Positions 36,501-38,283 of a DNA stretch of 64,000 bases are shown piece after piece. This DNA is from an uncultured Rikenellaceae bacterium (GTDB taxonomy: Bacteria; Bacteroidota; Bacteroidia; Bacteroidales; Rikenellaceae), in NCBI GenBank assembly GCA_946486375.1, contig CAMLTW010000007.1:62001-126000 (forward strand), in the 5' to 3' direction. The position numbers and the translations under genes were made by a program. Position 1 is the first letter of the stretch; every line of letters starts with the position of its first letter. A model generated the notes under the pieces. That model searched no databases and was not told the DNA's origin. It saw only the letters and a program-made list of their open reading frames with translations.

Positions 36501-37016
36501 ATGACAATGAACAGAGAAATGGAAGATTCGAAATTCCGCGAATTCTTCATCGAACAGTTGAAAGACATTTATTGGGCCGAACAGCATTTGGTCAAAGGTC
36601 TGCTGAAGATGGCCAAGGCCGCTACCAGCGAACAGCTGGCCGCAGCTTTTGAAAAACATGCCCGCGAAACCGAAAATCACGTTCGGATCGACGAACAGAT
36701 TTTCGAAGCGCTGGGGGAAGAACCCGACACCAAGAAATGCGAAGCCATGGCCGGGCTGTTGGAAGAAGCCGAAGAGCTGATCGCCGACACGGAGAAGGAA
36801 AGCTATATCCGCGATGCCGGGCTGATTATGGCCGCTCAGAAAGTGGAACACTATGAAATCGCCGCTTACGGAACCATGCGCGTGTTCGCCAGCTACCTGG
36901 GGAACAGGAAGGTGGAAAGCCTGCTGACGCAGATCCTGGAAAACGAAAAGATGACGGACATCACGCTGACGAAGCTGGCCGAAGAAGTCGTCAACGAAAA
37001 GGCGGCGGTCGAATAA
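36501..37016 (+). CDS. YciE/YciF-family ferritin-like protein (DUF892)
   Basis: Small all-helical ferritin-like protein, 171 residues, of the YciE/YciF family linked to stress responses. Helix 1 has IEQLKDIYWAEQHLVKGLLKM; AFEKHARETENHVRIDEQIFE and AQKVEHYEIAAYGTM hold the spaced Glu and His residues that form a di-metal site. The gene stands alone with a terminator upstream and another downstream. Promoter not identified. Confidence 0.9.
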   Translation: MTMNREMEDSKFREFFIEQLKDIYWAEQHLVKGLLKMAKAATSEQLAAAFEKHARETENHVRIDEQIFEALGEEPDTKKCEAMAGLLEEAEELIADTEKESYIRDAGLIMAAQKVEHYEIAAYGTMRVFASYLGNRKVESLLTQILENEKMTDITLTKLAEEVVNEKAAVE

Positions 37017-37035
37017 CAACCTGCCGTTTTCCGCA

Positions 37036-37069
37036 AAAAAACGGGCGACCCGAAGGTTGTCCGTTTTTT
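37036..37069 (+). terminator. Terminator of the YciE/F-like gene
   Basis: Thirteen-pair stem AAAACGGGCGACC/GGTTGTCCGTTTT with two G-T pairs and loop CGAA, followed by TT. It starts 20 bases past the stop and is symmetrical enough to act on both strands. Confidence 0.8.
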
Positions 37070-37230: not shown

Positions 37231-38283
37231 TTATTTCAGGTTGAATACCGGCAGCGTATCGGCAAAATAACTGTAGATCATCACCGCTACCGCCAGAACG
37301 GCCACGACGATGGCGATGACCAGAATCACATCCGTTTTCTTCTTCGGTCGGGGTGTGTTCGCAGACTGCCGGGGCGCCGTTCTCCTCGACTCGTTTCTCT
37401 CTGCGGAAACAACGGGTTCCGGTGTCGGTGCGGGACGCACTCCCGGTTGCCGGAAATAGGCCGGGCGTTCTGCCGGTTCCGCCGTTCGGGAAGGCATCGA
37501 AGCCCCTGATCCGGTCGTCTGTGCCGGGCCGCCGACAGCAGAGGGACGACGCGGACCGACCGGTTCGCGGCCGGCGGTTTCGAACGGAATATGCGCGGAT
37601 CTGTTCACCATCGTGCGGCTGCTTCGTCCTTCCGCGGGCCGATCCGATGTTTCGGGCGCGTTGCTGCAGACGTTCGGTTCCGACCGGTCGTCGATCGCAG
37701 GCACCCGGTATGGAGCGGTCGGAGGCGCAGCGTTTTCGGAAACGGGAGTTCGCGCTTCCCGCTGGGCTGTCGGATGGGGTACGGGCCGGGCGAATGTCGG
37801 CGTCGTTCCCGTCACGGGCGTTTCCGGAACAGTTTCCCGCACGGGAGCCGCAGGCGGTACGGGTTCGGGCATGGGCGGGGCCTTTCTTACCTCGGACGGC
37901 GGCGTACAGCCGGGCGTCCCGACCGTTTCCCCGGCTGCCGGAGCCGGTTTTCGGACGGGCGAAAAATCGTCGGAATCGAGGTAAAGGATGCCGTTTCCGT
38001 CCTTTTTCAGCGTTCCCAGCGATTGGATCAGGTAATAGCCGTTTTCGCTCACCGAAGACCGGATCGCCGCCGCGTATTGGGAAATGATGGTGGCCGAGTC
38101 GGCCTGCGAAGTGCCGTAGGACTGTCCGACCAGCGCATTCAGCACGCCGTCGTCCCTGTTGAGGAACGGCACGAAGACGATGCTTCCGTTTTCCTTTTTC
38201 AGAAAGGCTCCCAATTCCGGCAGAATCAGCCGCCGGTTGTTTTTCAGGTATTCCGTGATGATCGTTTCTATCATGGCCCGCAA
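37231..38283 (-). CDS. HU-CCDC81-like protein with Pro-rich linker and C-terminal membrane anchor
   Basis: Predicted membrane-anchored protein of 350 residues (ATG 38283; an ATG three codons later is equally possible). Residues about 4-105 look like the bacterial HU-CCDC81 type HU/IHF fold (IITEYLKNNRRLILPELGAFL, FVPFLNRDDGVLNALVG, YLIQSLGTLKKDGNG). Residues about 110-315 are Pro/Thr/Arg-rich and unstructured. KKKTD precedes a single helix (about 320-338), then a short tail SYFADTLPVFNLK. By the positive-inside rule the HU domain is cytoplasmic. Related proteins usually end in a periplasmic SPOR domain; here it is absent. DNA binding is not proven. Confidence 0.7.
   Translation of the reverse strand: MRAMIETIITEYLKNNRRLILPELGAFLKKENGSIVFVPFLNRDDGVLNALVGQSYGTSQADSATIISQYAAAIRSSVSENGYYLIQSLGTLKKDGNGILYLDSDDFSPVRKPAPAAGETVGTPGCTPPSEVRKAPPMPEPVPPAAPVRETVPETPVTGTTPTFARPVPHPTAQREARTPVSENAAPPTAPYRVPAIDDRSEPNVCSNAPETSDRPAEGRSSRTMVNRSAHIPFETAGREPVGPRRPSAVGGPAQTTGSGASMPSRTAEPAERPAYFRQPGVRPAPTPEPVVSAERNESRRTAPRQSANTPRPKKKTDVILVIAIVVAVLAVAVMIYSYFADTLPVFNLK

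Follow-up and report, generated by a model that had tools for sequence, protein, structure and literature searches.

What would a bacterial protein do with a histone-like domain that is held at the membrane, and what becomes of it once the SPOR domain of its relatives is gone? The question is raised by a gene in the window, by which we mean the whole analysed stretch of 64,000 nucleotides from an uncultured Rikenellaceae bacterium. The founding paper on HU-CCDC81 proteins, by Burroughs and co-workers in Cell Cycle in 2017, is said to have predicted a role in chromosome partition in Bacteroidetes, and to our knowledge the link of the chromosome or of cytoplasmic cargo to the envelope has been little studied in Bacteroidota. 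Our literature search returned no title about a bacterial HU-CCDC81 protein among the matches listed. An initial annotation had marked an open reading frame on the minus strand at 37231-38283. The frame and its strand are real, but its TTG start at 38283 puts three extra amino acids before the usual Met of the homologues. Since the majority of homologue starts (MIE, MIN, MVE or MVN) are in register with the ATG at 38274, we define the gene as complement(37231..38274), encoding 347 aa, with the following features.

37231..38274, minus strand: whole gene with ATG start, encoding an HU-CCDC81-like, single-pass membrane protein of 347 aa without SPOR; HU profile match in 189/200 Rikenellaceae genomes
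37969..38274, minus strand: tandem HU-CCDC81-like domain, residues 1-102 (AlphaFold2 pLDDT 95; PF18175; HU/IHF and 9io5 matched by structure)
37351..37968, minus strand: disordered Pro-rich linker, residues 103-308 (low pLDDT, Pro 20%, the least conserved segment)
37330..37350, minus strand: juxtamembrane RPKKKTD, residues 309-315, whose final D315 is D in 33/37 proteins and N in 4/37
37255..37329, minus strand: predicted transmembrane helix, residues 316-340, with hydrophobic core 316-334 and a sequence kept across Rikenellaceae
37231..37254, minus strand: short C-terminal tail, 7 aa past the predicted helix plus the stop, occupying the place of the relatives' SPOR
37036..37069, no strand: 15-pair hairpin with A/T flanks, separating the HU-CCDC81-like gene from the DUF892 gene convergent with it; a possible terminator

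Window positions 36501-37069 take in the DUF892 (ferritin-like) gene, convergent with the HU-CCDC81-like gene, and the 15-pair hairpin that follows it. The hairpin search found three sites against 4.0 expected from shuffles, a count that is not above chance.

Homologues were collected at 64 loci, from which we used 36 complete Rikenellaceae proteins and 20 complete others. The Rikenellaceae set of 37 proteins consists of the window protein and the 36 complete named proteins. Loci cut by contig ends (L053, L057, L066, L067, L074, L098) were dropped, as were L092, an uncut 107-aa ORF in which helix and SPOR were not seen, and L097, which offers only a 39-aa match; L079 starts at a contig edge. 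We found that the window protein matches PF18175 with an E value of 3.9e-07 and 30.3 bits, under the Pfam gathering cut-off of 35, and PF18174 with 12.5 bits (cut-off 26). Because both scores lie under the Pfam cut-offs, we do not count it as a Pfam member; the name HU-CCDC81-like is used here on the strength of the tree and the fold. The PF18175 match recurs at E <= 0.1 in 37/37 proteins of the Rikenellaceae set.

The initial annotation had read the N-terminal part as an HU-CCDC81-like domain and had proposed structure prediction among its checks; the model supports this reading. The AlphaFold2 model of residues 1-105, built from an 18-row alignment, has a mean pLDDT of 95.0 and a predicted tandem HU-type fold, with helices at residues 2-12, 44-53 and 57-78 and strands at 15-18, 22-26, 32-35, 80-83, 87-91 and 97-100; HU and single-chain IHF are matched at Z 5-6. 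Both hairpins that in HU bear the DNA-grasping beta-arm are 5-residue turns in this model. Foldseek gave no match at E <= 0.001, phmmer found no solved homologue by sequence, and a profile search for solved homologues returned weak matches, the best being IHF at E 0.044, among unrelated chains. In the full-length AlphaFold2 model the same HU-like domain is followed by the linker and then by one helix at residues 316-340. Residues 101-315 are without secondary structure, with 10-residue pLDDT means of 38-65 up to residue 310. This agrees with the disordered linker, 20% Pro, and the single C-terminal membrane helix that had been proposed.

The HU side had also been placed in the cytoplasm, and the charge bias around the helix, a sequence-level criterion, points the same way. 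Across the 37 proteins, the 15 residues ahead of the helix contain on average 4.7 K and R, whereas the mean after the helix is 0.6. The positive-inside order is found in 36/37 proteins (the exception is L079), and a second hydrophobic stretch is absent in 36/37. These observations support a single-pass inner-membrane protein with its N-terminus inside.

The explanation first offered for this architecture was a nucleoid-envelope tether, in which the HU body would bind chromosomal DNA and the helix would pin that body to the envelope. The HU/IHF-type fold of the body is consistent with it, and so is the distribution of basic residues. A basic residue stands at each of positions 14, 15, 26, 27, 40 and 72 in 86-100% of the Rikenellaceae set of 37; among 21 relatives, positions 15 and 27 are basic in 81%, but positions 14, 26, 40 and 72 in only 38, 33, 0 and 24%, respectively. 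Position 40 is K or R in 37/37 Rikenellaceae proteins and Y or F in 21/21 relatives. Upon matching of secondary structures, K27 would lie near the arm-base Arg of HU. The conserved basic positions are in favour of a putative nucleic-acid or other acidic ligand. However, canonical HU and IHF have beta-arms and a basic DNA face, whereas here both arms are reduced to turns, and the HU body carries a net charge of −3 in the window protein (residues 1-105), with means of −2.0 in the 37 Rikenellaceae proteins and −1.0 in the 21 relatives, against +8 and +6 in two canonical HU-type proteins that this genome also encodes. Because the arms are missing and the charge is acidic, we regard a nucleoid tether as possible and do not favour it, its chances being nearer to one in four than to even.

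We next consider the relatives. The window protein groups as the Rikenellaceae form of type A, one of two kinds of Bacteroidota HU-CCDC81/membrane helix/SPOR protein that we distinguish in the compared sequences. The other kind, type B, is represented in the same genome by a paralogue of 333 aa (L009:745-1746), in which an HU-CCDC81_bac_1 domain (42.2 bits, cut-off 26) and a membrane helix are combined with a SPOR-like end, scoring 17.5 bits for SPOR, under the cut-off of 21. By eye, this paralogue adjoins lgt-like and tyrS-like genes.

That the window protein lacks SPOR relative to its relatives, as the initial annotation had it, holds for its whole family set: 36 C-termini are short, and neither the Pfam listing nor a SPOR model built here finds the domain. 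Past the helix core, the C-terminus measures 12-45 aa in the 36 complete Rikenellaceae proteins, in contrast to 115-217 aa in the 20 complete others. Pfam SPOR (PF05036) is found in 20/21 of a comparison set made up of these 20 others and the paralogue L009, and is absent among the best 25 of 26 Pfam families for the 37 Rikenellaceae proteins. Against the same 37 proteins our own SPOR model gave a best E of 1.7. Its rows were 21 A3 rows and 23/26 B rows, leaving out L113, L124 and L127, and since it was built from those rows, their matches to it are by construction. A split-off SPOR gene was also considered and rejected, with a search of the window's own genome (E <= 1) returning two matches only, an amidase (by eye) and the type B paralogue.

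We examined the history of these proteins with a tree of 58 HU domains. Type A forms one clade (99/95), Rikenellaceae type A forms one clade inside it (99/94), and Rikenellaceae type B is a separate clade (100/99). SPOR-bearing lineages surround Rikenellaceae type A, with several inner branches not starred. The branch joining Rikenellaceae A to the nearest SPOR-bearing relatives (91/75) is not starred, nor is the one joining Rikenellaceae B to the other B rows. Genome G060 has a SPOR-bearing type A protein and another HU gene, L133, whose end looks SPOR-like by eye; L133 sits next to type A on a very long branch (88/67), an unsure place, and outside the family the tree does not settle type B. 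A single loss of the SPOR domain by type A, in the common ancestor of Rikenellaceae, would be the simplest history.

One contrary record is L080, a SPOR-bearing type A protein in a MAG titled Rikenella microfusus (SulCav). In the HU tree it groups among rows from outside Rikenellaceae, its neighbour genes are common to L078, L081 and L084, and SPOR was not found in the R. microfusus type-strain record L072. Because its tree place and neighbour genes fit other Bacteroidales and the type strain is without SPOR, we take L080 as probably a misnamed MAG and count it as an outsider, the HU-tree ground for this being partly circular. A second record with an unexpected title is L093, from a contig titled Candidatus Kuenenia stuttgartiensis. 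Its 540-aa HU-SPOR protein has membrane and end segments near-identical to those of L091 (539 aa, Chryseobacterium title), and it is probably a contaminant contig.

The membrane helix itself turned out to be conserved. Among the 37 proteins, A321 is kept in 35, A325 in 30, A328 in 27 and Y334 in 30; position 335 is G in 30/37 and S in the window protein, and position 324 is A in 30/37 and V in the window protein. As helices use few letters, we made control comparisons. Of the 17 mapped genomes with both types, G004 was excluded (the start of its B protein was not trimmed), and in the remaining 16 genomes (120 pairs) helix identity was 0.461 for type A versus 0.225 for type B, A exceeding B in 120/120 pairs, over shuffled-helix backgrounds of 0.224 and 0.169, respectively. 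At HU identities of 0.30-0.45, helix identity was 0.366-0.408 in Rikenellaceae type A; for SPOR-bearing type A it was 0.206-0.276, and for type B 0.203-0.218. The contrast between Rikenellaceae and SPOR-bearing type A is weaker outside this range: for HU identities of 0.20-0.30, the value in Rikenellaceae type A (13 pairs) is only about 0.27; for 0.50-0.60, it is 0.489 (38 pairs) versus 0.446 (7 pairs) in SPOR-bearing type A.

A profile of the helix region (37 positions) matched, at E <= 0.001, the HU gene and nothing else in 12/13 Rikenellaceae genomes, the exception being G001, whose HU gene is cut by a contig end. Among 149 genomes sampled from the order, of which the Rikenellaceae share is not stated, the profile gave two matches, both in Rikenellaceae. 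The idea of a helix common to another protein was rejected, with nothing else at E <= 0.001 in the 13 genomes and four weaker matches at E 0.027-0.086. One clean conserved helix face is only marginal, since 4.9% of shuffles reach the observed conservation moment at 95-110 degrees, and an angle of about 75 degrees scores alike. The conservation may reflect needs of insertion or of lipid contact. Nevertheless, because the helix is about as well conserved as the HU domain in the SPOR-less proteins, but not in type B of the same genomes or in moderately diverged SPOR-bearing relatives, it looks like a specific interaction surface and not a passive anchor.

A second explanation is that type A acts in a complex with type B, which would supply SPOR in trans. 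A type B query matched 26/37 Rikenellaceae genomes, including the window's own, 21/26 of these type B proteins match Pfam SPOR at E <= 0.1, and the outgroup G050 has both types (L134 and L135), each SPOR-ended by eye. The helix of type B, however, is not conserved, a poor fit to a conserved contact between A and B helices, and 11/37 genomes gave no B match to what was a single-sequence query. Furthermore, SPOR was not matched in the B-like proteins of G030 (L113) and G011 (L124) or in the short L127, so type B is not SPOR-bearing everywhere. We therefore consider SPOR in trans improbable. In L113 and L124, which belong to one genus-level group (g12), type B ends in a different, helix-like tail.

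Upon examining the gene neighbourhoods, we observe marked changes with clade. The window gene and those of three close relatives adjoin dprA and tatD, in opposite orientation; in many Alistipes-type loci the gene lies upstream of genes assigned by eye, first a sigma-54-type regulator (17 loci), then LptE-like (15 loci) and SecG-like (13 loci) genes. An arginine decarboxylase-like gene, assigned by eye, stands opposite the HU-CCDC81-like gene in 25 loci, and the neighbours outside Rikenellaceae differ again. A constant neighbour was thus rejected as a functional clue, and context points to no functional partner because neighbours change with clade. Orthology by synteny with the SPOR-bearing outgroups was likewise not supported, and we used the HU tree for it instead. 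A defence role was considered and set aside, the window protein having no PADLOC match. It also had no match in NCBIfam, in a search whose third query covered just 137 aa of the L033 protein. These neighbourhoods bear on a third explanation, a membrane-bound regulator in the style of ToxR or CadC, whose HU body would act on a promoter. A cytoplasmic fold of nucleic-acid-binding type, a single helix and a short periplasmic part would suit such a regulator, but the part past the helix core is poorly conserved as well as short in 36/36 complete Rikenellaceae proteins and there is no constant target neighbour, making this reading very improbable.

Next, we investigated how widely the gene is kept. 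An HU profile match at E <= 0.001 is present in 189/200 Rikenellaceae genomes, these 200 being a draw from a larger group, and in 108/109 of those with at least 90% completeness and at most 5% contamination; all but 7 of the 189 genomes have one match. The nearest named relatives of the window protein are in Rikenellaceae, and a single-sequence query matched 35/37 Rikenellaceae genomes and 2/24 other genomes of the order. Over the 37 proteins, the commonest residue of a position makes up a mean fraction of 0.57 both in the HU domain and in the helix, against 0.30 for the linker and 0.36 for the tail, and P19, G22, A23, F24, K27, D42 and G87 are invariant in 37/37. One Rikenellaceae genome (G033) has a 159-aa HU-only form, L144, with no visible membrane helix, either a frameshift or a soluble form. 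A decaying, functionless relic of an HU-SPOR protein would account for the lost SPOR, the Pfam score under its cut-off and the form in G033, but is scarcely credible for a gene so widely retained, with seven invariant HU residues and a conserved helix.

In the explanation we prefer, Rikenellaceae type A, which most simply arose by one ancestral loss of SPOR, acts at the inner membrane as an adaptor or tether that probably oligomerises and has its HU body in the cytoplasm; we give it about an even chance. It draws on what the compared sequences show: the architecture, the family-wide presence, the absence of SPOR in the proteins tested, the SPOR-like-ended paralogue and the conserved helix. The inner membrane would hold the protein, and the long, flexible linker would tether the HU body on the cytoplasmic side. 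The helix would associate with a second membrane helix, in the simplest case another copy of itself by way of the alanines, and this association may replace SPOR in positioning or clustering the protein. The HU body without arms, whose conserved basic positions are lacking in SPOR-bearing relatives, would bind a cytoplasmic ligand, which may be a protein partner or, less likely, DNA.

More tentatively, at somewhat worse than even chances, the change might be described as a swap of targeting module, in which the peptidoglycan-binding SPOR was lost, the helix became the conserved output and the HU body, with a new basic face, would be the cytoplasmic part of an oligomerising receptor or tether beside a SPOR-bearing paralogue. 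HU-CCDC81/SPOR proteins were already known; what is new is the SPOR-less variant across Rikenellaceae with its conserved membrane helix. The gene is near-universal in one family and mostly present in a single copy, its modules lend themselves to testing, and the SPOR-ended paralogue is a natural control in the same cell.

Finally, we compared the protein with known systems. Residues 40-102 superpose on HU (4p3v) with Z 6.1, rmsd 2.3 and 63 aligned residues, a likeness of body fold, and residues 1-104 align with single-chain IHF (2iie) at Z 5.2, rmsd 2.7 and 79 aligned. The window protein differs from HU and IHF in being a single-chain tandem with both arms cut to turns, net acidic and membrane-anchored. 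The best match over the whole domain (1-104) is to residues 156-263 of chain T in the Mycoplasma mobile G1-ATPase dimer (9io5), at Z 7.7, rmsd 3.1 and 96 aligned, with 12% identity; chain T belongs to a protein complex. Since all Z values are below 8, these matches show arrangement and not function. The terms 'HU protein', 'DNA-binding' and 'histone-like' are absent from the main text of the G1-ATPase dimer paper (PMC11864180). The domain of chain T, in this gliding-motor complex, could be a case of the HU-type fold serving in protein contacts. The window protein and its type B paralogue have in common an HU-CCDC81-type domain and a membrane helix, whereas the paralogue belongs to a separate HU clade, its helix is not conserved and its SPOR-like end is kept. 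The closest system is that of the Bacteroidota HU-CCDC81/SPOR proteins (PF18174, PF18175, PF05036), which have the same tandem domain, linker, one membrane helix and HU clade (type A). From these, the Rikenellaceae form differs in having no detected SPOR and a conserved membrane helix, and in the change of position 40 from Y/F to K/R and of position 41 from mostly N to mostly D.
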